64,000 nt of DNA from positions 19,435,207-19,499,206 of the forward strand of contig NC_089983.1 in assembly GCF_036417845.1 (NCBI RefSeq), in the 5' to 3' direction. Below, piece after piece: positions 40,984 through 62,560 of this stretch. Under the pieces are notes generated by a model. That model worked only from the letters and a program-made list of their open reading frames with translations, ran no database searches and was not told the origin of the DNA. Source of the stretch: Apteryx mantelli. Lineage: Eukaryota; Chordata; Aves; Apterygiformes; Apterygidae. A program made the position numbers and the translations under genes. Positions within the stretch are counted from its first letter, which is position 1; the number at the start of each line of letters is the position of its first letter.

Positions 40984-41168
40984 TTAAACTTTTGTGATGT
41001 CTGACGAAACTGCATATGTAAATGAATATATTCTAGAAGTTTGTCTATGGAACATATTTGCTCTCCTGAGTTTTCCCCTTAAGTGAGCAGGGGTAGATAT
41101 TAAAAGTAGTGAATCCTTGGGTTGACATTTAGTCCGGGGATGTCTTCCTCTACAACTCCACAACCTCT
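40984..41168 (-). CDS. ANKAR: ANKAR last exon recognised (basic C-terminal tail)
   Basis: The acceptor is atatttttcag. The frame carries RTKCQPKDSLLLIS and, later, IYSFTYAVSSDITKV, then TAA at 40986-40984. The next in-frame codons read RPRIV, which human ANKAR also has after DITNVS. The TAA therefore replaces a codon that is open in human; it may be the normal sauropsid end. Confidence 0.75.
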
Positions 41169-41645
41169 CTGAAAAATATAGTAAATTATTTTGTTAGAAT
41201 TTATATCATATGTAATATATTGCAACTGTGTTCTGAACAACATAAGCTATAGGTTTGAGACTTCTAAAAAAAAGACCTCAAACTAAAGTTATGTATGACC
41301 CAAATAAAGTATTTTACATCTGCACTGATGACTTTTGTGACCTTTTTGAATTTACCCATCATCTTCATTGTTTAGCAAAATTAGGAAAATGGCTTGCTTT
41401 TTTTAATACAGTGGTTAAATTTTTCCGCTTAGTTTCTCCAGTAGGAAACTGTATTTAGTACAAACTGGTACTGGTTTGCTGTGCAGGGACAAAAAAGTAT
41501 TAATAGTTTATGACTAATACATATCTCATGGCCATAGAAAATACAAACCGATTCTGGAGTTGCTTTGCAGATCCTTACTTTGGGGATGCACCAGTAAACT
41601 GCTTACCTGACTCCGCTATTCAAAGTGAGCTGAGAAATAACATAC

Positions 41646-41692
41646 CTCTAGAGTAAGTTGGAACTGCAGGTGGTCCTCCGTTTATCATCAAA
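41646..41692 (-). CDS. ANKAR: ANKAR exon R (47-nt C-terminal exon)
   Basis: The acceptor is ttccatttgcag and the donor is GAG|GTATGT. It encodes LMINGGPPAVPTYSR, matching a short NGGP-containing stretch in mammalian ANKAR, and phases fit both neighbours. Confidence 0.8.
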
Positions 41693-44600
41693 CTGCAAAT
41701 GGAAGAGCGACATCTTCAAAATGAGTGGTTTATTTTAAAGTACTCAACACATTCTTGTACTAATGAAAAGGAGCCCTTCAGCCTTTTTTTTTTGTTTCAG
41801 CTTTCCTTATACACTTACTTATTAGGAAACTCAGTCAGATTTTTCACAGTTTAAAAATGTAAACTTGCCTGTTTTGTTTTAAGGTAAGTTTTTATCTACA
41901 TAACTACTAAGAATAGTTGGCATTTGGGGGCAGGTTCTAGGTAGATGAAGGTTATCCAGTGCAACCCTTGCTTGCCTGACCATTGACCATAGCCCCTGGC
42001 CATTACTTCTAAGAGGAACTCGTTCCTACATATTTACTGGTATTAAGCAGAATCTTATTCCCGGAGCATTTCTGGTATTGCAAGATACTAAAATCTTGTC
42101 TGAACTACTGAAGTCAAATGGCAGATTTCATTGACTTCACTGGGAGCTAAACAGGGTCTATATGTAATTCAAAAGATGAGGGAGAAGTAATACAATAGGA
42201 AAGCATTTCTCTCAATATTTGTGTTTAAGCTGTGTATTCAATACTCAGTTGGCAAAAATATGAAGAATTTCTGATAAATAACTATGTACGATTGAACAAC
42301 TTAAGTGTACAAAACGAAATGATGCTGGCATCATACCTTTTTGTTGTCAAGTTTTTCCAATTTTGAAAAAAGATTTTAATTACAGCTGAACTTTTATCAT
42401 TTACAAGTAATAAGACTATTCAGAACTTGCAGTTACATATTTTATACTACACTCCTGTGAAAACTGCAACAGTTGGTGAAAAACAACTTCTATTAAGGGG
42501 AGCACAGCACTTCTGAAAAATCCCCCTTTTTTTAACCATTCACCCATACACCTGCACACATCTTTAAAATCTTAAAGTTTTATTAAAAAGAAAAAAAGGA
42601 ATCTCTGCACACCTTAAAGAAAAGTTACAGCAGAATTCACAGTAAAATGCACTATTTTCAAAGTGTTTGAGTAATTTATCTTAAAGTAGTTTATCCTCTC
42701 AGTAAGTTATCTTTTAATAGAGTCAACTATCACATTGCCTAGGCCCAGTGCAGCACGTTTATACACCCTGCTCACTGATTTCACCACAGATCAGACTGGA
42801 CTTTGTGAAACCAACAGTGAGCAAAACCCTTTCTCTTTCTGTATGATACCTGATCTGGTCTCAGTTATCCCAGATCTTAGCGCTGGTCATACCCTTCTCC
42901 GGATCAACAAGTCAGTCTAGCTGCAGAAAAAGTCTGTCCCTGCTTCCAAACTTTCTGCACACTGAGGAAGAGGGAATCCCTAGACAGCTGTGTTCTGTCA
43001 TACAAGAAAGAGAGACAAAACCCGTTGCAGATTTCCCATCAGGGACACAGCCTCATGCACTGGATCTAGATTGGTTCTAGTATGTCCCAAGCCTTACAAA
43101 AGCTTGATTCTATCAGGCCACAAAAATTTTCTTGTGTAATTCAACAAAAGATATGGTTAGCAGATCACTATTAGATTTATCTCATCCTGATTAAGTGTTT
43201 GGAACTTTACGCAGGCAAAAATGATACTTCGATGCCTTACAGTCTTCCCAAACATGGTTCTTTTTACAAAACTGTCACAAGGAAGTGGAGATGCTATCAT
43301 AACAGAATGATTAAAGTAAAATTACTTTAGAATATAAAAATCCCAAGTAGTCAAAAAAAAATTCCCCTTGAACACATAATGAAGGCAAAAAATACTTCTA
43401 TCAAGTTTTGTTTAACTACAAAAGATCTTTTATCACTAACATAGATGAATCAGATCATTCTTCAAGAGGGAATAGGTAATTACTACGTTTCTTGGAACTG
43501 CTGGCACTTGGTTCAATAGTAGAATTTATTAGCATTGGAGTGAATTGCTGAATAATACTAATACCTGTAGTTGAAAGTAATCCCCATATTCAACAGAAAT
43601 GAGGGAAATTATTAAATTAGAGCCCTCTCAGCCTCTAAAAATGGAGCAGCATGATTGTTCGCAGTCTGTTCCAATACAAGAAGAAAGAATCAGTTGAAAT
43701 GAATAGATAGCAGGTTGAAAACAAACAATAGGAAGTTTAGGAATGCTGGAAATTGAAGAAATTTGTGGAGCTGTTGCTGACAGCTTCAAAAAAAAAAAAA
43801 AAAGGACAGAATAAGCTAATGGAAGATGAAAAAAATCTACTGAATGTTATTAAACAGAAAGACACCATCTCTAGCTCATGAAGACTCTGAACTACAAAAT
43901 GAGAGAGACTGTAAAAATTCTCGGGAAGTCCTGATACATACTCATGTTACAACCGTTAAAGTTATGCTTTAAGATCAAAGACTCTTTTGTTCCTTTTTTT
44001 GCTTTTTAATGGCAGCTTCCTCTGCATGGTGTTAGTTTGTTTAGAACGATAATATGGACTGACAAATTGGTCAACTAAATTTGACTGTGCCGATTTTCCT
44101 ATTGCACCTTACACTGGACTGTTTTACAGAACAATTTGCTCTGGGAGGCATTCTATACCTTTCTTGTTTATTCTTAGTACAATGTGGGCTGTATCTTTGA
44201 TTAAGTTTAAGTTTTGTGTTATTATAATATCATTAACAAATTAATTTCACTGTTTAGAAATTAGATTCTTAACATTTTCCTTTGCTATGACACTAATCTT
44301 ATTTTTAAATGCTTTTTTCACACTGACTAGCACATCCATGGACTACTACAATCGATTCATCCTAAATTTTTCTCAATAGTTCTGAGTACTGAATGAGTGT
44401 ATTTTTAAATGTTACAGATAAATAGAACAGACAAATTAGATATAGAGCAGGGTTTTTTTGAACAAGCAACAACCTCCAACTTCCATGGAGCAATGGCACC
44501 AAATGAACCGCCATCAATAAATATGGTACAAGGAAACACTAACATGTTTTGACTAGCATGGTGAAATACAAACGCTATCCATACAGAATAATTCCTTCTT

Positions 44601-45250
44601 CTCAGTTCATGCAAAATACATGGCTTATGCTAAACCAGATATTTATTAAAAAAAATCAGACTATATTTCCTAGCTGTGAGTCCCCAAAGAACTCTAAGAT
44701 TGAAGATGTCATATTAGTAATATAGAAATTCAATTAAGTACACTTCCTGAAATATGCAACCTCTGTTTGGCTAACACCAAGAATCCCACCAGGATTAATT
44801 AGATTATTACTTCAAACTTTGTCCCATTGATCAGATTTTCTAGAAAATTCAAAATTAAAATAATATGCTAACATTTTGAGATTAGAAAATCCAGATGACC
44901 TCATATGACTAGTTATGACAACATATATCACCCTTTTAAGAAGGGATGAAGAACATAAAGGAAGTATTTAGTGTTTAAGAAACATTTTCATAAAGTTGGT
45001 TTTATATATGGCTACAGATACATCTGTATATTTACAAATATAAGTTGGCTACATCAAAAAAGTACTTGCATTTACAAAGATCATATTGCATGTATCACTA
45101 CTTTGTCTGTGGGCATATATGAAAACATTTCTTCCACAACAATCTCCTTAATGCGCCCTTAAAATAATTAAAAAATAGTTTTAGGGTTTTTATAATACAT
45201 TATTTTAAATTTAGTAAAACATACACCTGTAAAAGTACAGTAGAGAGTAC
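41693..45250 (-). other. ANKAR intron between exons Q and R
   Basis: 3.6 kb with an A-run near 43790. A slightly G/C-richer stretch near 42730-43050 has no recognised content. Confidence 0.6.
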
Positions 45251-45447
45251 CTTAGAGAAGGCAGTCCCACTCGTCTTTCTCACTGGAACTCATTTACAAA
45301 ATTCTGGTCTATTTGTGCATCTCTGCTGAGGTTATTCATTAGACAGCTAAACTGCTTTGGTTTATTCCTGCACTCTACTAATAGATGGCGGTACGCAGTC
45401 TGGTTAAATGTTAAGTATCCCAGTGCAGTGGCAGAGGCCATACAAAC
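45251..45447 (-). pseudogene. ANKAR: ANKAR exon Q with in-frame TGA
   Basis: 197 nt: MASATALGYLTFNQTAYRHL, ECRNKPKQF, NNLSRDAQ, then NEFQ followed by TGA at codon 56 (45282-45280), then VGLPSL in the same frame. The acceptor is tttcttctag and the donor is AAG|GTACTC. In human the frame is open through this point. Confidence 0.9.
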
Positions 45448-46833
45448 CTAGAAGAAAAACAATTCTCACCCTTAGGTCAAAGGATATTCTTTTTAGTAAA
45501 TAAAGAGACCATTTTGTCAAAATAAAGCAAGTGCATAGAAGCAGCTCTCCAATCACCCAACAGAATTCCAAAATGGGTCAAAAAAACAATGGTGTGAATG
45601 AAAAAGTGAAAAACATTCCTGTTAAATGAACATAAATTTGGTTCTATAACTGAAAAGCTGCTCTACTTTGGGCCAAGTAATGGGAGATCTGCAACCTACT
45701 TTACTGAAAGAAAGAGTGAAGCTCCTGTACTCACATGTATCTGAAAGCAACGAATATTCATAGAGAGATGGGAAAAAGTATACAATTTTGATTTGTGTGA
45801 CACATGTGATGACAAATGAGGCTCTTCAGTAGTCAAATTTTTCAAGTCACTGTTTGGTCAATTATTAACATTATTACTTCACTATCTCCATATACAACTT
45901 TATAACATACAGAATTTTCCAAGAGAGACATGTAATAGAAGATAACTAAATACCTTATGCTAGTTTCCTAAGACACCCCAGGCTAGTCATATAATCATAG
46001 TCACACAGTCATCACTAGTCATACAGTCAACCTACAAGTGTTGTAAGAAGCACTGTTGGTAATTAATCAATTCTTCACTGAATTAATGTTGAACCACATA
46101 GTACTGGAGATTATCTGCTATTACCACTGCTGTTTTGATTGGACAGCAAAAACTAAAGCTTTGATTACAGTAGTAAATATGTTATGGTCTTTTGCAAAGG
46201 CTGGGTGCTTCTCCCAATACACGACCCATTTAAACAAAACAGAAAACTAAATCCTGCCTCCATATGGAATTTGTAAACTTAGATAAAAAGGTGGACTATA
46301 TCTGCTTAAGTTTTACAAAGATAACAAGACTAACTTTTGATTATTGAATAACAGACTAAGCGAAAATTCAGGGAAAGATGCACAAATAAAGTGCTGACAG
46401 ACTTAAAATCCATAGAACATATGGAAAGTATGTTCTACAGTCTACAGAGACCAAGAAAAGTGAAAAAGAAAACATACCTACTATACTAGCTAAAATTGAA
46501 AATGGTAAATCTTTACTATAATTGGTAATTCAGTATCACTGTTGTTCCAAAGCACTACTTTCAAGTCAACAGGAGTCTTCACGGGCTGAATCTGATGGGT
46601 AGCTGACATATACTGAAACATTTAGCTGAAAGACTGCCCTCTTCTGAAATCCCTGATTTCAATGAAGATAAGAAACCATTGATTGCCATTTAATTATCCT
46701 ATTTCTTGAGGTTTTTCCAAAATACTCCTGTTAGCATGAGCTGTACTGTCAGCCAGCTGTACAAGTTGAATTTAACACAGAGCAAAAATAAACAGAAACA
46801 CACAACACAAATGCTACTTTTCTAGCATTTTAT

Positions 46834-46943
46834 CTCTTCATCATCTGAGTACAGATGATAACAAAGATGCTGGATAGTTCCTAATGTAGTAATGGCTTCT
46901 GGAATTCCTGCCCTTGTATGAGCCAAGCTGGCCAGTAACTTCC
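46834..46943 (-). pseudogene. ANKAR: ANKAR exon P, donor GT replaced by AT
   Basis: The acceptor is catttccag. The 110-nt frame LLASLAHTRAGIPEAITTLG and on to YSDDEE is intact. After GAG the intron begins ATAAAA where GTAAAA is expected (46832-46833). Read-through meets TAG four codons later. It does not match the U12 AT-AC donor ATATCC. Confidence 0.85.
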
Positions 46944-47631
46944 CTGGAAATGAGACATGACAAGTGTACAAACGAACTGTAAGCATATTCTATCTTCTTC
47001 ATAGTCTTAATGATATACATCAATACTCTTTCTGAAACAACTACAGAAACTGTTAACTGGTTGTAATATCAACAAACTTGCCACCATTATTTCTATGCAA
47101 ACTCTCAGTGATTTTTTAATGTAAAATATTATATTTCTCTAAGAAATCTGCCTTGGGAAGAAAAAAAATCATTCTATAGCTATCAATACTTTTTTTCCTC
47201 TAATCGCCAATCTTTTGACAAGCTGTTGAAATCCTTACTCAGTTTTATTTTTCATTGCTAAGACAAAACCTTCCCCCCACCCCCCATTAAAGGTTTTTTT
47301 AAGATGAATTAGGTATTCATTTCTCCACATTTCCCCAGGAGGTGGAGTAGCAGCTATACAGAGGCTGGTTACACTTTATGTTACAGTACAAGATGTTAAT
47401 GGTACTTTGCCATCAGATAAGGGGTTACTTATTTTTTTATTTTTTTTTAAACTTCTCATGCAAGTAACTTGGGCATGTTGTAATCTCCTGACTTTGCATC
47501 TAACATTGCACATGTTCAATTATCATATCATTTACTACATTATCCTAGAGGAAAAATAGTCCTTTTTGGAAATGCATACGCTTAACTTTTGCTACTATAA
47601 AAATACGCTGTTCATTTTCTCTATTTCCTAC

Positions 47632-47749
47632 CTGTAAGAATAAGAGCAGCTGTGTTCTCAGAAGTTAGCAGTTCAACTAACGTAGTAACACCTCTAGCAG
47701 ATAAAGTAACCTGATCAACATCCACTATAACTCTGGCTAACACAACAGT
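47632..47749 (-). pseudogene. ANKAR: ANKAR exon N, acceptor AG replaced by AA
   Basis: The 118-nt frame TVVLARVIVDVDQVTLSARG and on to ALILT is conserved, and the donor ACAG|GTAGGA is good. The phase-correct acceptor position reads tttgatttcAA instead of AG (47750-47751). Nearby AGs upstream or inside the exon all lead to early stops given the phase of exon M. Confidence 0.85.
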
Positions 47750-48372
47750 TTGAAATCAAAAGACAACTTGATTTAGGTAAGCCTCATATTTCCTTATCCT
47801 TCTCTTTATTATTGGAAAAAAAATTATACATGTTGCTCTAAATTTAAACATCACAAGCAATGTGATACACTCATAAGCAATACCAACTGTGAAAAAGATA
47901 ACTGGTTTCTCTATGGATGTAAGAGTGCAAGACAAACAATACAGTACATCAGGTTTTAGCTAGCTAATATCTAATGTCCTCAAGTAATACTGTTTTTTGC
48001 TTACTTCATATCATACTACTTTATTGGAAGAATTATAATATAATACATTTTATTTAACGCTAAATTAATTAAAACACAGAAAGAATGCTGCATGCTTTAA
48101 GGCAAAAATCTAATTTTCCAGATGAATGAAGGGTACAGAATAAGTCAACATGGTGTAATAAGCATGAAAAAAGTACAAAATGTTCTTTAAATAGTTCATT
48201 ACAGACACTCAAAAAGAAAAACTTATAAATATTACTATACCATCATATGTGATTACACAAAGGCACCTAAGCTTCTATAAACTATATATATGAACATAAC
48301 ATTATGCAGAAATTTTTTTCTAGTTTCAAATATCTAAAGCCAGTGCTTTGAGAATACTCCCTAATCTCATAC

Positions 48373-48531
48373 CTGAAATGCTGCCCATGCTTTATCTGTT
48401 TCAATTTCTGACTGCAGAAAAGGTTCAAATACAGATATTGTAATTGCTCCACTCTCCAGGATCTGGAGTTGTTGGACACAGTTATTGTATGCAAAAAGGG
48501 CTAGAGCATATGCTGCTCGTAAACAAATATC
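48373..48531 (-). CDS. ANKAR: ANKAR exon M (armadillo), frame open
   Basis: 159 nt encoding DICLRAAYALALFAYNNCVQ and ending AWAAFQ in phase 0. The acceptor is cttttattttaag and the donor is CAG|GTATGA. Confidence 0.93.
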
Positions 48532-49631
48532 CTTAAAATAAAAGTCAGAAAACCACATAAATTCGTATTTTCATACTATCAGCCTCTCCCCAGACTGTTT
48601 GTGGCTTTTTTAGGTATGCTAGAATAGTTACTATCCCTGCACTCTATCAAACATACATCTCTTCTTGCCACTCCACTTACCTTATTTTTAGGGATTTCTA
48701 TAAATGTATTCCAGACCAAAGTCTTCAGAGATTGAAAAATAATAAAGTATGAACACTTAACATCAAGGAACCTTTATTACTTAAAGCAAAAAAACAGCAA
48801 ATAAAATACAGCAAAACTAAGTAGTAAAACAAGTAAACCTAAAATAAAATCTGTAATATTTATAAGAAAAACAATTCATCCTACCAAAGGATATTTTACT
48901 TTTACCTCCAAGGAAGGCTTTGATAACGTCCACTAAGACTTCTTCATTGCAACAGGGACAAAGGGGCAAGAGAGAAAGAAAAAAAAAAAAAAAGATAAAA
49001 TAGCTAATGTTGTGCAGCAGAAAGCTTTGACGAATGGCAGCTCTTGGTTTGTTTTTTCCTCTGTGCTAAGATTACACCAGACATGTGCGTGCCTGTCCAG
49101 CTCCTGACACTGCATGCTACGATACTGGATGATGCCATTAATAGCTACAATGATCACGTCCAGCATTTTAATTCCCCTACAGGTGGGCTGGTTGAAGGGA
49201 CTCTGTGGGCAGTCAGCTCATCAGGAATCTTGCAACAGAAATATCTTTAAAGGAAATGCCTTTCTGTAAAACCTGTTCTGGAAATGTGGGGTTTATCTTC
49301 CGGAACTTAAGGTCTAGTTGCCTTAAATGTAGTGTGTGCTTAGACTGTAACAGTATTTATGTCTTTAAATCTTCTGAAAACATACCAGACTATTGTATAG
49401 TTTTTACCTCAAAACATGTCCAAATATAAATGAATAATTTCATTATCAGAAAATAATAGTCCGGTTAAAGATGAGACAGTTTTGATTACGGCTAACATGA
49501 AAAAAATTCATACAGAAAATACAAGGAGCTATTGTATAGTAAACTTTGTGCATATTAAACTTGCTGTGACATTATGAAAGGCAAATTCTTGCTCCTAAAT
49601 TGATATTGTTATTTTATAGAAAAAAACATAC

Positions 49632-49754
49632 CTTATTCGGTGCGTGAAGAAGTTCAAGAACATCAGAATAAACAAAACCTTCTTCCTCTTGTAACACCTT
49701 CTGTAACTTACTGTTTCTTAAAACAATACAAGCCAAGGAATATGCAACTTCAGC
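49632..49754 (-). CDS. ANKAR: ANKAR exon L (armadillo), frame open
   Basis: 123 nt encoding AEVAYSLACIVLRNSKLQKV and on to LLHAPNK. The acceptor is taatgtttag and the donor is AAG|GTATGT; phase 0 at both ends. Confidence 0.92.
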
Positions 49755-50547
49755 CTAAACATTATGAAAGAGGCAGTTACTCTGCACAACAAAATAATTA
49801 AAGACACTTTACAGGGAATAAACAATTTATCTTTTCTATTACCAAAGTGTGCACACTTCCAAATATGAGAGTTGTCATATTGGAACAAATCATTACTACT
49901 TCTATCACAGGAAAAAGTAAGACTTCACACATTTGAAAAAATACAGGAAATGAAAAATATGAAGCTGTAATTTACTCTGTCGCACAAAATTTTAACCATA
50001 TTTTGGGAGGAGAAGGTGAAGTTAAAGAAGGGGGTATGATAGACACATTGAAAATAATAGAAGATAGAAAAATGGTAAGCCTAGCAATCTATCCTTGTAA
50101 CAAGGACAATTAATGTAACTGAGAGGCAATAGGCAACAACTTTAGATAAAAAAAATACATTTACATAACTTATAATTCACACATTGAATTCATAACTACA
50201 ATATCAGAGAGGCCAAGGATTTAGCAAGTTTTAAAGTATTAGCTATTTATCCAGGTAATGAAAAGATCCAGTTACAGAACATAGGATTTATAAAATACAT
50301 GTTTGAAAATACTAAAATCTCTTTTCATTTCAGTGACCTGGAGGAATCAGAAAAAGATTTCTCCAATGGTCAGATAACTACTTAAATGCCCACTAATAGG
50401 CTTTTTGCATCTTCTTCCAAAGAATCTGTGACTACTTACTGTTCTAGGATGTCAGAGAACACGGATTTCTGCTACGATTTGGTAAATTAATGGCTATGTT
50501 CCTAACCTCAAATCAACCTCTTTGTGCCATGTAGTATGAGAACAGAT

Positions 50548-50650
50548 ACACACACACACACTACAAGGATTATCCGGTGTGTGTATATATATATATAAAT
50601 ATATATATAAATATATAAATATATTATACATAATATCTATATATTTTTAA
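50548..50650. repeat. Compound CA / AT microsatellite
   Basis: (CA)n at 50548-50561, then a mixed TATATAAATATATA tract from about 50583. Confidence 0.9.
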
Positions 50651-51616
50651 TATATAATTAAAAAACAGATAAATGTAATACTGCCCTCATTACTCTGTAG
50701 AGATGCCTGCTTAACTAGCTTTTTATTCTGTGATTTAATAAATCTTATCTGTGCATTAGGATTAAAATATACTTTCTTGTAACTCTCTTGAAGATATCAA
50801 TAACAGACCCACCTACAGAAGACTACGCTTCTGTACGTTATCAGATTCAAAAGTTTTAAACCTTTTCCTTATCAGAGCTTTGACAATCTTAAAAAAATCC
50901 ACACCACAAACTACGCACATTCCAAAATTCTAAATGAGGTAATGCTAAGGAATATGCTTAAACTACGAACTTACTGTATTTACTCTAACCTCCTAGAAGG
51001 AGAGTATTCATGTGATCTCACAGGATCATGTTAGCAGCCAGATTTGGTCCCATTTGCTTAATGTGAGTGAAAGGTAAGTTTAACATATCTGTTATCTATT
51101 ATTCCCTACATAACTCTTTAAAGAACTAGGTTATGAGTTACTACAGAGTAATATCACATTCATGAGCAACTATTTCGGGGAAAAAAAAACCCACCACCAC
51201 AAACAACAAATAACATGTACCTAACATGCTCAGGAGAACCATTCAAATAAGAGAATCATTCCACCAAATCTCTGAAGTTTTACATTATTTTCTGTTTACA
51301 GAAGAATACATACATATGTACGTATTCTTCAGCTCCTCCTACAATTCAATCCTCCATACAATTAAAAATAAAACTGGTCATTGTTTACAGCAACCATCTG
51401 TAAAATCAAGACTGACTATAAAACGGCTTTACAGATAACTTCTTAGTAGCTGATTTTTTAAGGTGTTTTACATTCTTCCTTTCTGTCTCACTTCTGACTA
51501 CACTGCAGAAAAGACAAGAAGTATTTTTATGCCCCTATTGTTGCTCTACCAGGCAAGGAAGACAAACACATACATGTACACACATACACATATGCATGAA
51601 ATTTCTTACTCCACAC

Positions 51617-51723
51617 TTTTATCTGAAGTGAACTGTGATGTTTCAGCATATGCACTAGGATTGGTAAGGCCTGTTCCTTCAATATGCTTTTCTGGCTGAC
51701 AGGATTGTTTGTATGAGCCACAC
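51617..51723 (-). CDS. ANKAR: ANKAR exon K (armadillo), frame open
   Basis: 107 nt encoding VAHTNNPVSQKSILKEQALP and on to QIK. The acceptor is ctcttacag. The donor AAA|GTGTGG is the only choice that keeps phase with exon L, and it is weak. Confidence 0.88.
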
Positions 51724-51969
51724 CTGTAAGAGTTCACATAACAAAATATTTCTCTTATATAAGGAATTTGTGCGTGTGGTGAGGGGAAGAAACAAGGGCA
51801 GTGGAATTTGCAGATGGGTGTATGTGTATGTATATATTAGTATGCATACATTAGTGTATACATATTGACAAATAATATGCAAAACACACACGTATACAAT
51901 ATATAGTAGAAGCAAACTATCTAAGTATACCTGAACTATCATCTTTACTCTTGAAGAATTTTAAAGCCC

Positions 51970-52011
51970 AGACTATTAAAAAGCATAACTAGACTGTTAA
52001 AAAGCATAACT
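51970..52011. repeat. 21-bp tandem duplication
   Basis: agactattaaaaagcataac at 51970 is repeated directly at 51991 with one base change (actatt to actgtt). Confidence 0.93.
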
Positions 52012-52409
52012 AATGAATGTACGCCTTTAAACATACAGGCAAAAGACATCAAACGCATTAGGAAGTCACGGTGATTTACTGCTGTATATCAGCTGACAAA
52101 AAGCAGCATTAGAGACTGGTGAGAACAAAAACAATATGGTGTCTAAATGTGATAAGGTAGTCACATTTACACCTCAATAATGTTGGGCAGATAGCTTTTC
52201 ATGGACACATCACAGGTTCCGAAATTTATCATAAGTGGATAAAACAAGAGTGTCATTTATGGCATCATATATTCAGTGACACATAATGGTTCTGCTACAT
52301 ACTGTACAAAAGAAAATACAATCTGTTAATTGATACAACTTCTATTTAGTCCATTTTTCTATTCAGAATCTTTTGCTTCAAACAAACAAATTCAATAGAT
52401 TCTACAAAC

Positions 52410-52571
52410 CAATGCATATGGTCCCCAGGGCTCTGATGACATTCAGGAGTGTCCCCTCTGCTATTTTTACATTTCTCAACAACCAAGCTAAAGGGCTGAT
52501 TCCATTCCCTTCACATATTTGATTTTGATGATGTCTGCTCTCTTTGCAAAGAGCAACAACTGCTTCTCCTC
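52410..52571 (-). CDS. ANKAR: ANKAR exon J (armadillo), frame open, weak splice sites
   Basis: 162 nt with GGEAVVALCKESRHHQNQIC and GTLLNVIRALGTICI. The acceptor is tttgttggaag and the donor is TTG|GTTTGT. Both keep AG and GT but fit the consensus poorly. Confidence 0.88.
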
Positions 52572-52661
52572 CTTCCAACAAAAAAATTTGAAAATTTTAT
52601 TGAAGTTCTTTTTAATAAACTGTCCAGTATTCTTACAAACTTGCACAAAGAAGTATCTTAC

Positions 52662-52815
52662 CAACGTGCTGCATTTTATCAGATGGTGATAAAAGCATAT
52701 CAGTAATTAAGTTATATCCAATCTGCTCTGCCACAAACTTTTGCTGCTTCAGTTTTTTTCCTGCCAACGCCCACAAAGCTGTTGCACCCTGTTCCTTAAC
52801 TTTCAAGTGAAATGC
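52662..52815 (-). CDS. ANKAR: ANKAR exon I (armadillo), frame open
   Basis: 154 nt with VKEQGATALWALAGKKLKQQ and EQIGYNLITDMLLSPSDKMQ. The acceptor is atcattatgcag and the donor is TTG|GTAAGA. The next intron is only 90 bases. Confidence 0.92.
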
Positions 52816-53004
52816 CTGCATAATGATAATAAAAAAGCTTTTTATATATAGCAGTATTTTAAGATGTGCATATTAAAAGCCTCAACTATCTACTCCATGA
52901 AATTAAAAGTTTTCCAAAACTTCAAGGTAGCTGCATTTTCTACACTCTTTTCTCCTGAACAAATTGATGTCAAACAATCCAATAAACACAAGAGAAATTC
53001 TTGC

Positions 53005-53246
53005 CTTTAAGAGCTTCAACAGATCCTTTGTTACCAATTTCTCCAGGAATGCCTTCTGCACATGAGTGTTGTTTTCACACAGTGCCTCTATAGCCATAGC
53101 ACCTTCTATTTGTACATTGACATTCCTTCTTTTTAGGAGTTCAACTAGAGGATCAATTGCCTCTGCATTTGCAATGGCATCCTGCATTTTTTTATTCCCT
53201 CGAGCAAGTTCTGCAATAGCTGCAGAAGATACAGCCTGTAGTACAC
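53005..53246 (-). CDS. ANKAR: ANKAR exon H (armadillo), GC donor
   Basis: 242 nt with VSSAAIAELARGNKKMQDAI and GAMAIEALCENNTHVQKAFL, ending DLLKLLK. The phase-correct donor is AAG|GCAAGA, a GC rather than GT site. Confidence 0.88.
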
Positions 53247-54247
53247 CTTTAAATGCAATAAGTATTTATCAGTTAGAGGTAAGAACCAGTGCAACCATCT
53301 ATCATTTTTACATATAGAAACTCATGTAATCTAAACTAAACAGATTCTGTTTCAAATAGATGTTAGCATTGACAGTTTTTAAGTGAACTAATACAGATAA
53401 ACAAAAATCAACAAAATATTTAGTTATTTTGCCCAGATTCCTGTTCAATGTATCTGATCCCTATGTATTCTGAATGGCTTTCAAGTCCAAATGTCATCAC
53501 TGAGGACTATCAGATGCTCTAAAATTTTACAGTATCTGCATTCATGTACCAAAACAAATTTTATTGTAGTTATAAATGCTTTGCTTTAAATGGTGATTTT
53601 ATCTTGATTTCATGCAAGATGAAAATGTTTTTTTGATCAAGTGTGGAATTAAAGATGATACTTTTATGCTACTTGCACATAAAGTTTTTACTCTTAAAAT
53701 TTCATTCACACATAACTGTTACCAACATGTTGTACATCTGATGCTTGTACTTATACACTGTATGTTAGACAATCATTCAAAACCAATATAAGAAAAACAA
53801 CGCTGATTTACCTGACAGGCAACTCCACACAATAATATCAACCAAAACCCCCCAAAATAAGTGATCGAGCTATGTGGGCTGCAGCTGAGAGGGAGGCCGG
53901 GGGGAAGAGTTCTCTCTCCACTTAATTCATTATATATTTCCTTCGATGTTTGTGTATTAAAATTTAGTTTGTGAATCATCTTATACAAGACATTAAAGCA
54001 TTTACATGTACCTTACATACAAGTATGCTGCTTAAACTAGTCTGATGTGAAAGAAAAGAAAAATCCATATTCGATAAGGAACTGATCTAATTTCTTTCAA
54101 TTAACTTTGGTAGCTTTCTCTCAGATCCCATGAGCAAACAAATAACAGCCACATTGCAATCAATAATAAAAGCTTATGCTTTTCAAATGTTTACAACAAG
54201 AATATGACACACACACAAAAAAGGAGTCTATATAGATTAATTTTTAC

Positions 54248-54416
54248 CTGAATATGAAGTTAGAAACTGAATAAGTAATGGAATACTCTCATGTTCCTTC
54301 ACTTCCTCTTGATTACTTTTGTTCTGAACACATAACACTCAGATACAATTTATTACATTTACCAACAAATCATCCATTTTACTTTCCAAAAGATTTACCA
54401 AAGATGGGATTCCACC
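54248..54416 (-). pseudogene. ANKAR: ANKAR exon G, armadillo exon with in-frame TGA
   Basis: 169 nt with good splice sites (ctactttag; CAG|GTAAAA) and the correct phases. It reads GGIPSLVNLLESK, then NVINCI, then TGA at codon 26 (54341-54339), then VLCVQNKSNQ. Human has Arg at the stop position. Conservation resumes after the stop in the same frame. Confidence 0.9.
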
Positions 54417-54554
54417 CTAAAGTAGAAAAAAAGAGAGTATGTCTGTTATATGAAACTACCCAGAGAAAGACCTGATAGTATGTGTGTGTGTGAGGGCAGG
54501 CTGACAGCAGCTTTATCAGTTAAGCTTAATTAATAATTCTGGATTCTGGCTTAC

Positions 54555-54799
54555 CAGCTCAGCAATGACATTCTGATAATTGTCCAAATGAGCAATGTCA
54601 TATAAGATAACAACACAGCGAGACTGCAATTCAGGTTCACCACAGCCCAATAAATCAACCAATACAGAAATGCCCCCAGCTTCTGCAAAAGCTTTGGAAA
54701 TGGCATCATGAGTTGAAATATTACTAAGAACACCTGAAGCTATGCATGCAAGCTTGATATCCTGGCTTTTTAACAAATTTATTATAGGGGATATAGTGC
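54555..54799 (-). CDS. ANKAR: ANKAR exon F (armadillo repeats), frame open
   Basis: 245 nt containing ISPIINLLKSQDIKLACIAS, GVLSNIS and AGGISVLVDLL, typical armadillo helices. The acceptor is ttttttgcag and the donor is CTG|GTAAGC. Confidence 0.93.
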
Positions 54800-55394
54800 C
54801 TGCAAAAAACAAAAGACACATCAATTACTTTCAGTCATTATGACAATAAAATCCAAAACAGTATTTATTTTCAATTGACATTCAGAATATCAGATAAATA
54901 AGAGAAACAGACAGGTAGAAAATATCTTACCTTTAAAATTTAACCTCTTGAAATATAAATATAATGTAAAACTTAATCAGAAATCTGAATATATTTATAA
55001 AAAAAATGTGCAACTTCTCCTGGAAAAAAATCTGAAAGCTATGATTTTGCTATAGCATGTGCACAACTATAGAATGTAATGAAAAAAGCCTCTGAGTTAG
55101 CCTGAGTCCTGTTCTTATTATATATACAAGATTTTGAAACATGCCAAGACAAGCATACTACTCTTCTGATTCTCAAGATAAGTATACTACTTTTGTCAAA
55201 TGAATACTAACTTACAGCCAAATACAAAAGGGATGCACATATCGATCACGACTATATATCCCAAATTGCTAGCCTAAAAGCATGGCTCAAATGTTATCCA
55301 ACCTAAAGACATCTAACTACCTCTGGTTTCAAAATTCCTCAGGAAGGTACACTTCTGCACACATCTAATTACTCTAGCTTTATAAGACTACCAC

Positions 55395-55650
55395 TTATAA
55401 AAACTGTTAGACCATATCAGACCAAAGATCAGTCTAGCCCAGCATTTTATCTCCAGTTTGTAGCTGATGTTTAGAAAAGAGAATGGGAAAGAGACTAATC
55501 TCTAACACTTTTAGTTTTTACAATACTTACAATCCACAATATGCCTGAAAAAGCATTCAACTTTGTTGCTTTTAAACTTGCTGCAGGATAATTTCATTGA
55601 TGCTCCATACTGACAGCTGACACACAGACAGTTTCTCATGCTTGTCCTTT
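55395..55650 (-). mobile_element. Old CR1/L3-like LINE fragment (3' end)
   Basis: On the minus strand this reads tgggctagactgatctttgg followed by tctgatatggtctaac. This resembles the well-known 3' end of CR1/L3 LINEs (GGGCTAGATGGACCTTTGGTCTGA). Just upstream, atgaaattatcctgcagcaa resembles the end of the reverse transcriptase region (MKLIGSRF). It is strongly diverged, truncated, and in the ANKAR orientation. More of it may extend to about 56.0 kb. Judged from memory of the consensus. Confidence 0.6.
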
Positions 55651-56144
55651 ATAAAAATAGTTCTGACATTCAGTCTTTCTGCAAAAGCCTTGGCTGTACC
55701 TGTTAACATCTTGATTCTGTACTAACCCATTGACTCTCCGGCTTCTGACAAGTTTAGTTTTAAAATTATTATTAGCTTTTTACCTTTTACACATTGTTCT
55801 TCAAAATATTTTTATCTAGTCTTTATACAGCTTTAGATTTAATATGCTGGAGCTTAATCTTTTTACTTACTCTGTTTTATGATACCAGAAAGAAAATTAT
55901 TCCCCAAGATAAGTAGTTATTTAACCTTTGTGATCCATATTACACATACATCAAGCAGCCATTTTAATCTCTGTTCTGAATAAAACTGAAGTTATTGCTG
56001 TTTTGCTGCATTTAGCACTTTATGAAAACTTTGTTTCTGCAGTAGCTTTGTTGCTAGCCACAGATGACAGCATAATTAATTTTATGCCTTATCACATGGT
56101 AATGTTCAAGTAAAATATCAAGTACATTTGATGTACTGTATTAC

Positions 56145-56249
56145 CTGCATCCAAAATGCACTTCCAGTAGTAATCTTTTGCTAAACAAAGTACTTCCAAG
56201 GACCTAATAGCCATTTCTCTCCTTGTAGTATCTTCACAGTTTAACATTC
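56145..56249 (-). CDS. ANKAR: ANKAR exon E (entry to armadillo region), frame open
   Basis: 105 nt containing RREMAIRSLEVLCLAKDYYW and ending at a split Gly. The acceptor is attctgaatag and the donor is CAG|GTAATA. Confidence 0.88.
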
Positions 56250-57536
56250 CTATTCAGAATTTAAACACATTTTACACATAAAATGATCCACAAAACAATT
56301 ATACATTTGAATAGGAAAGGTAAAGATTGCTAGACCCTTAAAACAATGTAGTGTATTTCACCACAATGATATTCCATTTCAGTCACAAATTCCTATTTCA
56401 TGAAATCAATAGTAAAATTCCCATGAACTTAAACAAGTTTTCATGCCAGGTATATTTCTGTTGTTGGTAGGCCAAAAAGAATTTCCTTTCCTGAAGCTCA
56501 ATTTTTAAGACTAAAAATTTATAACACACTGTTTTTAAAAAATGGCAGACATGCTATGACAGAAATTAATATTCAAGCGTTCATGTATGCTTGTCACTGG
56601 AGGAAAAATCCTCCTCTCAGAGGCAAAAAAAAAAGTCATTCTTATGCAAGGCCTGTGAAAAATTTTCCTGACTGCACCACGAACTCTGAAGAATGCTCAG
56701 ATGTTATTCTGGCAACAGTAGGAGCAATGTAGAGATATTAGCTCTTACCTTTAATCAAGCTCTCTTTTCATAGTCTGTATCTTTCAGCATTTAATGCAGT
56801 AAGAATAACACATAATAGCCTATCTATCCTTTGCAAGGCCCTCTTCACAAGAAAGAGAAGCTAGAAACAACAGTAAGTATACTTGTGCCATTTTGGGTGA
56901 CAGCTTTGCAGATAATGAAATCCTTTGTTCTGTTTAAAACTACAGTTAAGCCAAAAGGATCACAATTATGTGGAACATTCTTCCAAAAAGAGCACGCATT
57001 TCTCCAAGACAACACCTTTTCCATTGTCAAGTTGTCTTATCTTACAGATACATCTTTGATTAATACTAGAAGATATTGATCCTGAAAGCATATAACAGTC
57101 ACTTGAATAGCTTTATTGCACTGCATGAGATTAATCGCATATAAAAATTCAAAAACATTCTTAAATGTTAGCATATCACAGCCTCAACATTGTAGAATAA
57201 AGAAATGCCTGAGAATGGAAAAATAAACAGTACTTTAGTGGACAGCAGTCTTGAAATGAAGATGAAGTCCAGCATTCATGTGACAAATTTAGATTTTTAG
57301 CATGCAGAGGTTATACTTTTTCCATCAAATTCAAAACATCAAAGAGAAGGAATAACCCAAATAATGCTTAGCTTCAAGAGTGATGTCTCTAGAGACATTC
57401 TGATCCCAAAGTACTCACTTTGGTTTCATTACTTGTAATTTGAGGGTTATGCAATTTCAGAACTGTAGGGAAACTGCAAGTGGTTAGATAAGAATTCTAA
57501 CCTATGAATTGCTTGGAGACACACTTATGTACTTAC

Positions 57537-57748
57537 CTACGATAGTACTCCATAGTACTGGAAGATCTGGATGATTTATCTCTAACAGATGCTTAAGAAT
57601 TTCTGTGTGAAAGTAAAGCACTGCTAAATGAATTACATTGTTTCCTTCACTGTTAGTTTTTTTGCAGTTGGCACCAAGAGAAAACAAATACTGAAGTGTG
57701 TCTAACGTTCCAGATATGGCAGCGAGCAGTAGTGGAGTAACTCGATAC
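57537..57748 (-). CDS. ANKAR: ANKAR exon D (ankyrin repeats), frame open
   Basis: It contains RVTPLLLAAISGTLDTLQYL and GNNVIHLAVLYFHTEILKHL. The acceptor is tgtctcaaag and the donor is TAG|GTAAGT; 212 nt. Confidence 0.92.
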
Positions 57749-58741
57749 CTTTGAGACACATGAAGACATTCTAATATAAATACACATAATAAAATCTGAC
57801 ATAGAAAAAGTTATTTAAGACATGGTCACTTAAAAAGTATTTCACTTAAATATTAAAACAGTACTTTTAAATGAAAGCCAAAAAGATGCAAATAGGAAGC
57901 TTTCTATTCCAATATATTAATTTACCTTATTTAACAAATTTTGTCTGTTCAGTTTTTATTTGCTTATTTGCATTAGGCTGAACTGAGGCTAACAAGGAAA
58001 CTTCAAATTGGATTGACAATGCTTGATTTTCTGTCAACTTCAATGAATGTTATAAAAGATCTTTCAATTTCTGTTGCTCATAGATATACGGCACAGTATC
58101 GTGAGGCCAAGAACAAATCTCAGCACATCAGCAGTTGCACAAAACCCTATCTCTTCTCCTTTGACTATTGTTCAAAATACATTTTAATTCTACAAGTTAA
58201 AGACATGAACACTTTCAAATAAGTTATTTTACTTTCATATGGACAAATAATCCATATCTGTTCCACACTGAAAGAATGGTCATTGGAGCAGACTTGCACA
58301 TGACAAGCTCTACATCTTGTTCTCTTCTGTTCCCTGAAAACAGCCAGCAACCAACCTGCTTGGATGTACCTATGACATACTAGTCACCATAAGTAACAGT
58401 AGAAAAAGGCACAATTGCTGATGCTTGTAATATGCTTTCAATCATCCAGTCCATAGATGTATCATAAAAATATAAAATCACAATAATTGATATTTCCATA
58501 TTTAAATTGTACAGCCTAAAGAATAAGAGATGATACTCCGTCCTTCAAGGCAACTAAACTTTTAATTGGAGATAACACTGGTGGATCTGCTTCCATACAT
58601 TTAAGGATAGTGCTGAAAATGTATTGTTATCCTTATTTTGAAATGTTTTTTTTCTCTCTTAACCTCACATATTATAATTAATATTTTACAATGAGATTTT
58701 TTTGTTATACAGCATTCTTTAAAACACTTCTAGTAACTTAC

Positions 58742-58943
58742 TCAGCTGTTGTTTCACGGTCTAGTAGATTAGGGTCTTTTCTGCAGAGAACTGTGATACA
58801 AGCAATGTTATCATAGAATGCAGCATAATGGACAGCCAGCCATCCTCGATGATCAGACACTTTATAATTTGCCTTCGTGGCAAGGAGACAGTTAAGTGCT
58901 TCAATGGATCCACACTGAGCTGCTAAGTGTAAGGCAGCAGGAC
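58742..58943 (-). CDS. ANKAR: ANKAR exon C (two ankyrin repeats), frame open
   Basis: It contains AALHLAAQCGSIEALNCLLA and GWLAVHYAAFYDNIACI. The donor is TGA|GTAAGT. Two acceptors six bases apart (edges 58943 and 58949) both keep the frame, so two residues may be optional. Confidence 0.9.
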
Positions 58944-59014
58944 CTAGAACTAATATACATACACAAGCAAAATCTCACATGCTGACCTAAATAAGTAAAT
59001 GAATTAAAATGTTT

Positions 59015-59040
59015 TTGTGTGTGTGTGTGTGTGTGTGTGT
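59015..59040. repeat. (TG)n microsatellite
   Basis: Uninterrupted TG repeat of 26 bases, shortly beyond the acceptor side of ANKAR exon C. Confidence 0.95.
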
Positions 59041-61405
59041 AAGGCTATTTTCATTGCATTTGCAGAAACAGCTTATGGAAACAACTGATAAAAGCTGTTA
59101 GTTCAGTGGTAGCACAATCACATTCTACTTTTCTCAAAAAACAAAACTAAAATATCCCACCTTCGTACTACAGGATGCATATTTTGGAAAATTTTATTTT
59201 TATAGCCTTCAAAGACTCTGATTAAAATCTTCTTCATTTAAAATGTGAATACTGTATTTCCTTTTTCCTTAGTGTATGGTACCATGTTTCCCCACACAGC
59301 ATGGGTAATAGGTAACTTACCAAACTTTTCGTAAGTCTGCACACTTTTTTTTCCTGACAATAAACATAAAATATACAATCAGAAACAATACCATCACTTA
59401 AAGACCTGGCAGTGCCAACATTTGTATGGATGAACAGTAGTTACTGCTAAATAACAAGCTCCAGAAGTATAGAATTAATCCCGCTGTGAAATAAAATATC
59501 CCCCTTTGCGATGGGATAAAGTTCTATTCCACCTCCACTTCCCTATAGAAATGAAACACAGAAAGGAGAGAGTCACCCTCTAACATGGCAGCTCTTGCAA
59601 CTAACCAAGACCACTGGCATCAACAACTCTCTCTGAAAAGTGGAAAGAGAATGTAGCACAGCAAGCAGTTTGAAATAAGTTAGGAAAAATAACATTGCAT
59701 ATATTAGGCATAGATTTCAAGATACATAATTTTAAATACAAAAATATCAAATATTAAGCTATTCAGGGAACTAACGGTCTTCATTTATCTCTAAGTAAGC
59801 AGACAATAAACCAGTAAGGTAAGAAATCCTTTCCTTAGGCAGGGAATAAATAGAGATGGGAATAAATGTTACATATATGAACTAGTTTATCACAGAGTAA
59901 TGTTTACTATTGCAGACTCAGAACTACTTTCAAACGAAACTCTGAATACAACACTGTTTGTTTTTCCATGTCTACTTTTTTTTTTTTTTAAACTAAAAAT
60001 CTTGGAAGTACCCAGTCAACATTTATTATTCTAAGGTAAATTATTTTCTGTGAAGACTGAGAAGGGATAAGACTAATTTTCATTTCTCTTGTGGTGAATT
60101 TTATTGTTTCCCATACATTATTCATTTAGCAATTTATTAATTTATGTTTTTACAAGACACATGTATTTGACATCCAGGGCTAATATATTCAACAAAAGTT
60201 AGTGAAAATAAAACACTGATAAACTTAGTACTATACTTACTTGCTTTTTCTGTCTTACTCTTCTGTGAGTGTTTTCCTGTAATAAAATATCAGTTTTATA
60301 AATGTTATAATATATTCTACTTTAATTTTATACACAAAAATATTGCATATATCACTAAATATTTATACATACATGTATGAGAGAAAAGATGTAGGTAAAT
60401 GTATAATTCTAGAGGTATATACATAGATATTATTAAAAAAAAAAAAGTCCCATAGGGAATAATATAAACAGACATAAATTTAACTGAAACAAATGATCAA
60501 GACCACTATAAAATGAGGCTGAAGTTCATGAATAACCTTATATATTTGCAAAGAACAGAGCATATTTTCCCCCTCTTCTACATAGCTAGTCCAATAAAGG
60601 AGATGCCTAAAATTTACAGAAAGAACAGCATATTTCTGTTCAAATAGACATACTAGTGCACAGGAATTTGTTCCCATTTCTCTTTCCACTACAGAAGATG
60701 GCAGGGATCCAGCTCTACTATCAAACTAGTTAGAAAGGGCAACGGTAAACTCAAATTGCCTAAGAGTTTTAAAAATCTGTATCAGAGACCTTCCTCAACA
60801 AGTCTTTATCATTTAAGTATGGTTCCTGACTATGCTTACTTTTCTTCACTGGTACTTTACCTATGAAGTAAAAAAAAACATAGTGCTGCAGGAATGAATG
60901 GATGGCGTTCTTAGAAAGTCAGACCTCACCATCCTACTGGGCTTACAAAGTATGAATATTTAATTTCATTTTTCTCAAAGGTCTATTACAGACAAGGACA
61001 GTCATGTGAAATAATTTTTAATCTATTCTGGCACCTGGCATAGCTGGCTCCTTGTCAAAAGAAATAATGCAATTACAGTCATTCTTTGAACTTGCAAATC
61101 CTACAGCCCATAAAGGACAGATATTCTACAGGTCAGTGCACAATTGCGTATTCAACCTAGAATAGTTTAAACTAGAAGGGTAAAGTTTTGAAGAGAAGAG
61201 GAGAAAGTGACTTGCTCAGGTCCATTTTTTACATCAGAAAGCTGGTTTCCTGTGAAGTTTCTTCACTGAAGTTTTCACAAGGTTTAGAAAAAGAGCACAT
61301 TTCTCTGTACTGATACCCTCCTTTTACAAAACTCCTCTTCTAATAGGAGTGAAAAAGAATAGGATCCTAAAAATCATTGCTCTCCCAACGCACATCATAT
61401 CTTAC

Positions 61406-61625
61406 CAAGGTTAATGTGAACAATGCATCTCTGATTGATATCCACATGGGATTTAATCAGCTGATATATAATTGGAACACGGTTGTACATGGAAGCATGG
61501 TGAAGAAGGGTGAAACCAGATTCATCAATAACACTGAAACTGGAGGTAGATGCTTTATGACAAAACCTAAGGAAGATAGCAGCTAGTCCTCTCTTGGCAG
61601 CTGATTTCATACCATATGGCAAGCT
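61406..61625 (-). CDS. ANKAR: ANKAR exon B (ankyrin repeat), frame open
   Basis: 220 nt with SAAKRGLAAIF and the ankyrin signature GFTLLHHASMYNRVPIIYQL. The acceptor is taaattttag and the donor is TTG|GTAAGA; ends in phase 1. Confidence 0.9.
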
Positions 61626-62379
61626 CTAAAATTTATGGAAAATAAAACAGTATTAATATCTCAGAAGAAATTTATTATAATTTGCACTTTGGAAAAGATA
61701 ACAAGAATGCATTAACTTCAGTTCTTTAATTTTAGATCTTCCTAGATGGTAAAGTTTTCAATTGGTATAAATTTGTATAACAATAGGGCTTTATGAATCT
61801 ATCAAATTTATACCAGCTAAAGATCAGTCTCTGAGAATGATTGTGCAAAAATGTTGCCATGCTATCTCTACAGATTTGTCCCTGAGGTTTACACATTGTA
61901 CCTATGTGCTACGGAGACTAAACATCACTTTATTATAGTTTACTTATATCAGAAATGAAGTAACCACAACAGATGTACACTAGCCAAGTGAATGGCTTCT
62001 ACTGTGGCTCACATCATCCATGTAGTGTGATCTGCTAAAGTATAAATCTGCAATCAATTTTTTACCCTTCATCAGCTTTATATCATAATGTTGAAGACAA
62101 TGGAACATTGTTCATGTGCAACTGAATGAGAAATGTGAAAACAATAGGGTTTGAAGATGTTAATGAGGCTAGAATAAAGGCTGCAGAGACATTAATAGCA
62201 GTGATGATACATAAGCCTAGAGAGTATAATTCCATTTATTGATATCGGGTGGACTCCACAGGCATGGAAACAAACAGTTCACTGTAGACTGCATAAATAT
62301 ATTCTACCATAATGCTTGTATTTATATTTCTTGAATGCAGACGCACTTTAAGAGAAAAATATTTTCATTAATTAAGTAC

Positions 62380-62560
62380 CTTGCATTTAATAGCTTCCTT
62401 GTAACCAAATCTTTTTTTGAATTGCTCAAGAGTCTGTGAATCAGTAAAGGCAACTCCTTCAGGCTTAAGAGTGTTTATTCTTTCATTTATGGCTGCCCAC
62501 TGTGGTGTCTTATATAGCTGCTGATAAAACCCTTCAAATTCAATACAGATCACATAGTAG
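62380..62560 (-). CDS. ANKAR: ANKAR exon A (upstream of ankyrin repeats), frame open
   Basis: The acceptor is tttaattacag and the donor is AAG|GTACTT. It contains EFEGFYQQLYKTPQWAAINE; 181 nt ending in phase 0. This is the first ANKAR exon recognised; earlier ones lie beyond 64000 or were not found. Confidence 0.85.

Follow-up and report, generated by a model that had tools for sequence, protein, structure and literature searches.

Two described gene losses in birds come closest to that presented here, which concerns ANKAR, a gene for an ankyrin- and armadillo-repeat protein, in a 64,000-nt stretch of Apteryx mantelli DNA (contig NC_089983.1, positions 19,435,207 to 19,499,206 of the forward strand, assembly GCF_036417845.1; hereafter the window). 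For WDR93, which was lost in Anatidae and other birds, premature stops and a conserved gene order are reported; in Anatidae an AG-to-AA change omits exon 6 from the transcript without disturbing the frame, and geese additionally carry stops (PMC10445033). ANKAR resembled WDR93 in its premature stops, its conserved gene order, and an AG-to-AA change that strikes the splice site of an exon dispensable to the frame. It differed in that the history of WDR93 was traced over many species with RNA sequencing and whole exons were lost in several lineages (PMC10445033), whereas the present case came from one genome, had no phase-required exon missing, and had a skipped unit that would comprise two exons. 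STK33, a unitary pseudogene of neognath birds, is reported as likewise a bird-lineage loss with indels and premature stops, but it is old (~100 million years) and has large exon deletions (PMC4509753). The Apteryx ANKAR gene, intron-bearing, recently disabled and with no second copy found, is very probably a unitary pseudogene early in decay, since its introns are kept, several independent lesions are present and the remaining frame is open. As such it would be an ordinary case of recent date, of special interest only for its C-terminal lesions.

On the minus strand, ANKAR ran in the window from 62560 (start of the first in-window exon) down to 40984 (end of the final stop codon), an extent that a preliminary description had given correctly, and overran the right window edge by 3.4 kb; positions above 64000 are window coordinates continued past that edge, with the adjoining stretches joined on. 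The model consisted of 24 coding exons over ~26 kb, 20 in the window (E1-E20; eighteen had been counted in the preliminary description, E3 and E4 being only 36 and 33 nt) and 4 beyond the right edge (U1-U4), with a total coding length of 4,324 nt or ~1,440 codons. Junction phases agreed at 23 of 23 junctions with the single U2 frameshift discounted, and apart from the lesions the frame was open over the whole length. Seven lesions were observed (4 premature stops, 1 frameshift and 2 dead splice sites), all on the minus strand; a slash marks the exon-intron boundary here and below:

67075-67073, minus strand: lesion 1, stop TAG in U1, outside the window, visible in the raw sequence
67057-67055, minus strand: lesion 2, stop TGA in U1, outside the window, visible in the raw sequence
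65968-65962, minus strand: lesion 3, one base too many in a T7 run of U2, breaking the frame, outside the window, visible in the raw sequence
54339..54341, minus strand: lesion 4, TGA, premature stop in E9 and clearer than the other in-window stop
47750..47751, minus strand: lesion 5, dead E16 acceptor, AA in place of the required AG
46826..46827, minus strand: lesion 6, dead E17 donor, AAA/TGCTAG
45280..45282, minus strand: lesion 7, ambiguous stop TGA in E18, overlapping the in-frame donor CCA/GTGAGA

Lesions 4 to 7 were the only ones found in the window and fit the two stops and two splice sites that had been named, without positions, from the window alone; the place of lesion 7 within an in-frame donor makes it ambiguous. 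The 20 in-window exons chained without a frame-breaking indel, as had also been claimed, but this did not extend to the whole gene, and the argument for early decay drawn from the absence of such indels fails because the U2 frameshift lies just outside the window; the interpretation itself, a unitary pseudogene early in decay, stood as the best reading. Translation of any ANKAR transcript that is still produced would end within the first exon, exposing the transcript to nonsense-mediated decay, and the full-length ankyrin-armadillo protein would therefore not be made.

Besides the dead splice sites, three others looked eroded but not dead, namely the E12 donor (1.8 bits) and both sites of U3, the donor AAG/GTTTTA (-0.1 bits) and the acceptor (-8.1 bits); the scores are based on general consensus frequencies, not calibrated on this genome. 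An intron within U2 hiding its frameshift was rejected, as it would be 27 nt (by eye), too short. The 7-mer TTTTTTT occurred 238 times in the window on both strands (overlaps counted) versus ~78 in shuffles; homopolymers are thus common in the window, and indel calls within them need reads.

The E1 DNA had a single match in the genome, represented by one assembly of 1.504 Gb in 408 contigs on which the whole analysis was based, and with a 587-residue query (E8 into E18) 11 of 11 matches fell within the ANKAR locus (21 candidates scored). A second ANKAR copy was not found in these searches with the E1 DNA and the E8-E18 stretch, which a distant paralogue could escape; a retrocopy or recent duplicate of the searched parts should have ranked high. 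With its introns kept, the locus is not a processed copy. A scan of prokaryote genome contigs with E8 gave no match, as expected.

By the lesion clock, the inactivation of ANKAR is recent. The clock, in which the indel/substitution ratios and substitution rates are assumptions, expects, for each unit of neutral divergence, ~166 stops, 92 hits on splice sites, and between 173 and 519 frameshifts. The seven lesions gave a divergence (d) of 0.016, 0.012, and 0.009 substitutions per site at indel/substitution ratios of 0.05, 0.10, and 0.15, respectively, with 95% limits between 0.0036 and 0.0335 across the three settings; d was lower by one seventh without the ambiguous E18 stop. At bird rates taken as 1 to 3 substitutions per billion years at each site, the time since inactivation would be some 3 to 16 million years, or 1 to 34 at the outer limits. 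Four stops in ~1,440 codons are few for long-unconstrained sequence, and therefore the frame must have been maintained until fairly recently.

The gene order in the window, from open frames, was PMS1 (minus), ORMDL1 (plus), OSGEPL1 (plus), and ANKAR (minus), with ASNSD1 (minus) next after ANKAR beyond the right edge, all five names being presumed ones, recognised from the translations. ANKAR was thus flanked by ASNSD1 and OSGEPL1, then ORMDL1 and PMS1; in human, ANKAR likewise lies between ASNSD1 and OSGEPL1, with ORMDL1 and PMS1 farther out. Its domain order was ankyrin repeats followed by armadillo repeats (Pfam Ank_2, E 2.1e-19; Arm, E 7.2e-25), and the armadillo exon E8 had matches to solved armadillo proteins; the N-terminal 498 residues matched no family in the Pfam search at E 0.001. 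Intact human ANKAR presumably has ~1,434 residues, and the intact vertebrate gene is alike in its ~1,440 codons, ankyrin then armadillo repeats, and position between ASNSD1 and OSGEPL1; it differs in that frame and splice sites are broken only in the present locus.

The OSGEPL1 and ORMDL1 exons found, together with the main ASNSD1 exon (outside the window), had 0 lesions in 1,042 codons, where 3.6 were expected from the stop plus frameshift rate of ANKAR (5 in 1,440 codons; P(0) = 0.027); these pieces were selected as open stretches, which favours a zero count and may hide lesions at exon ends, and ASNSD1 entered the count with its main exon only. The neighbours, earlier described as free of lesions, were so in these open pieces, whereas of PMS1 only a few exons were seen, and those were open.

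The exons of the model, all on the minus strand, were as follows:

67417-66820, minus strand: U1, first coding exon, outside the window
66144-65709, minus strand: U2, outside the window
65340-65180, minus strand: U3, outside the window
64223-64108, minus strand: U4, outside the window, from the gap search
62380..62560, minus strand: E1, start phase 2, end phase 0, from open frame, splice sites and phase chain
61406..61625, minus strand: E2, ankyrin repeat, from exon chain and Pfam Ank
60241..60276, minus strand: E3, small, 36 nt, from splice sites and phase only
59321..59353, minus strand: E4, small, 33 nt, from splice sites and phase only
58742..58943, minus strand: E5, ankyrin repeats, in-phase donor TGA/GTAAGT, from exon chain and Pfam
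57537..57748, minus strand: E6, ankyrin repeats, from exon chain and Pfam
56145..56249, minus strand: E7, from exon chain
54555..54799, minus strand: E8, armadillo repeats, from exon chain, Pfam and solved-structure matches
54248..54416, minus strand: E9, from exon chain, own acceptor 15.5 bits and donor 7.7 bits
53005..53246, minus strand: E10, from exon chain, GC donor AAG/GCAAGA (intron start 53003-53004), probably usable
52662..52815, minus strand: E11, from exon chain
52410..52571, minus strand: E12, from exon chain, weak donor TTG/GTTTGT (the eroded site of 1.8 bits)
51617..51723, minus strand: E13, from exon chain, moderate donor AAA/GTGTGG, 4.7 bits
49632..49754, minus strand: E14, from exon chain
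48373..48531, minus strand: E15, from exon chain, end phase 0
47632..47749, minus strand: E16, 118 nt, from exon chain, first half of a 234-nt cassette
46828..46943, minus strand: E17, 116 nt, from exon chain, second half of the cassette
45251..45447, minus strand: E18, from exon chain
41646..41692, minus strand: E19, best-scoring gap candidate, phase fit to both neighbours
40984..41168, minus strand: E20, final coding exon, from exon chain, includes the stop codon TAA

U4 and E19 were found by gap search; U4 topped both the candidate list restricted to the needed phases and that with the start phase free, and E19 topped its list without phase restriction, its phase then fitting both neighbours. 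For the U1 start codon, as for the small exons E3 and E4, the placement was based solely on the open frame, the splice sites and the phase. Three further candidates were rejected: the apparent stop after E5 is part of its in-phase donor, the E10 donor is a plausible GC donor of an intron that is probably GC-AG, and an open stretch near 48930 considered as an extra exon carries a stop in the needed frame (judged by eye).

The two dead splice sites were exactly the outer sites of the pair E16 and E17, and as the pair measures 234 nt, skipping it joins E15 to E18 in frame. Frame-keeping cassettes of one or two exons are bounded by 15 of the 1,035 possible splice-site pairs, and cassettes of any size by 97. 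Two cryptic E16 acceptors, in frame and open, were found inside that exon (47710 and 47656), while none of the GT sites listed within E17 or up to 150 nt past its end would serve as a replacement donor with the frame left open. In E18, the in-frame donor that contains the stop scored 5.1 bits versus 4.1 for the model donor, 33 nt upstream of which it lies; the exon would then end at 45284, and with this junction the frame stays open on through E19 and E20. Single changes that make a stop and leave an overlapping in-frame donor at least as strong were 6 of the 542 stop-making changes in 22 exons (U2 and E20 left out). These cassette and donor figures were computed post hoc, after the pattern had been noticed, and are therefore suggestive only. 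At the 5' end, the best in-frame upstream donor for removing the U1 stops scored 2.5 bits versus 11.0 for the normal donor. The notion that E16 and E17 are each one armadillo repeat in the same register was not supported by exon-peptide alignments: for the five pairs tried, 413, 225, 495, 182, and 15 out of 500 shuffles reached the observed score.

ANKAR may still be alive in a shortened form, starting downstream of the U2 frameshift, skipping E16 and E17, ending E18 at 45284, and using a weaker E9 site that removes the stop. The rarity of such a cassette and of such a donor coincidence speaks for it, as does the existence of in-frame sites in E9, and a precedent for a shortened gene is available in Anatidae, where WDR93 without exon 6 is reported to have an open frame in ducks and swans (PMC10445033). 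Against it, the own sites of E9 are stronger, the two stops and the frameshift in the first two exons demand a new start, and the pattern was noticed post hoc, with many more pairs qualifying once any cassette size is allowed; survival in this form is considered unlikely. Quite unlikely as well is that the lesions are polymorphic, this haplotype being dead while other haplotypes in the population carry a living ANKAR. In favour are the low number of lesions and the inactivating polymorphisms of WDR93 reported in geese (PMC10445033), but seven lesions over ~22 kb on one haplotype would imply a long-lived null and not a single young allele. That an intact ANKAR was made to look broken by assembly or sequencing errors is very improbable; the frameshift in a T7 run and the use of one assembly would fit such errors, but homopolymer errors do not explain four stops and the loss of two splice sites, and no lesion was seen in the neighbours' open exons, read from the same assembly.

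Several points nevertheless weigh against a unitary pseudogene early in decay. The evidence came from a single assembly, the U2 frameshift lies in a typical spot for assembly error, and the E18 stop may be no lesion. An in-frame route round the E9 stop exists as well, through a donor at 54383 (4.5 bits versus 7.7 for that of the exon) or an acceptor at 54266 (6.2 versus 15.5), although these bypass sites are weaker than the normal ones, whereas the alternative donor of E18 outscores the model donor. With a single frameshift, the seven lesions include fewer than expected under neutrality if indels are frequent (P = 0.157, 0.027, and 0.007 at ratios of 0.05, 0.10, and 0.15), and this low share tells against pure neutral decay of all seven lesions at the two higher ratios. 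The name ANKAR is itself a putative assignment, based on domain order, neighbours and presumed likeness to the human sequence.

Within the pseudogene interpretation, a tentative possibility, regarded as rather doubtful, is that ANKAR was lost in stages: two C-terminal exons and 11 codons would have been shed in frame, the trimmed form remaining functional until killed by the 5' stops, the frameshift and the E9 stop. One base change would have created the E18 stop together with the in-frame donor that removes it. The C-terminal lesions would perhaps be the oldest, since splicing can avoid them with the frame intact (by the E16 and E17 skip and the donor at 45284), and the frame-ending lesions would have killed the gene later.

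Further observations were made elsewhere. Past the right edge of the window, 86778-94000 held a tandem array of a 186-nt unit in at least 39 copies with 96% matches, most units having a short telomere-like AACCCT run. On another contig (C1), a beta-globin-like exon at 1349071-1349229 had an in-frame TGA and odd substitutions and lay between copies with open exons; it is possibly a decayed beta-globin copy. Globin exons of this genome were most similar to bird hemoglobins. Exons 1 and 2 of the adult-type alpha globin together matched PDB entry 3a59 (ostrich) best among single alpha chains, followed by 1faw and 1a4f (geese); exon 1 by itself matched 3eok and 1faw best, with 3a59 sixth among single chains, and the beta exon scored 3eok and 3a59 equally, so that these matches favour no particular clade.

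ANKAR seems little studied. Among the matches listed from the open-licence literature, none had its loss or function as subject, judged by title and abstract; many, by their titles, seem to use the name as a surname or a different word, and PMC13341116 does not mention the gene. It is reported as a candidate from a genome-wide association study near MSTN in cattle (PMC10568825), and as up-regulated in rabbit cerebral arteries, where it is also described as affected when the aorta is dilated or dissected (PMC3712983). If relatives with an otherwise open gene share the frame-keeping C-terminal lesions, this would show that splicing can trim a gene before its death. The Apteryx locus, if it truly is a recent knockout that arose naturally in a bird, could be used to test what ANKAR is needed for.

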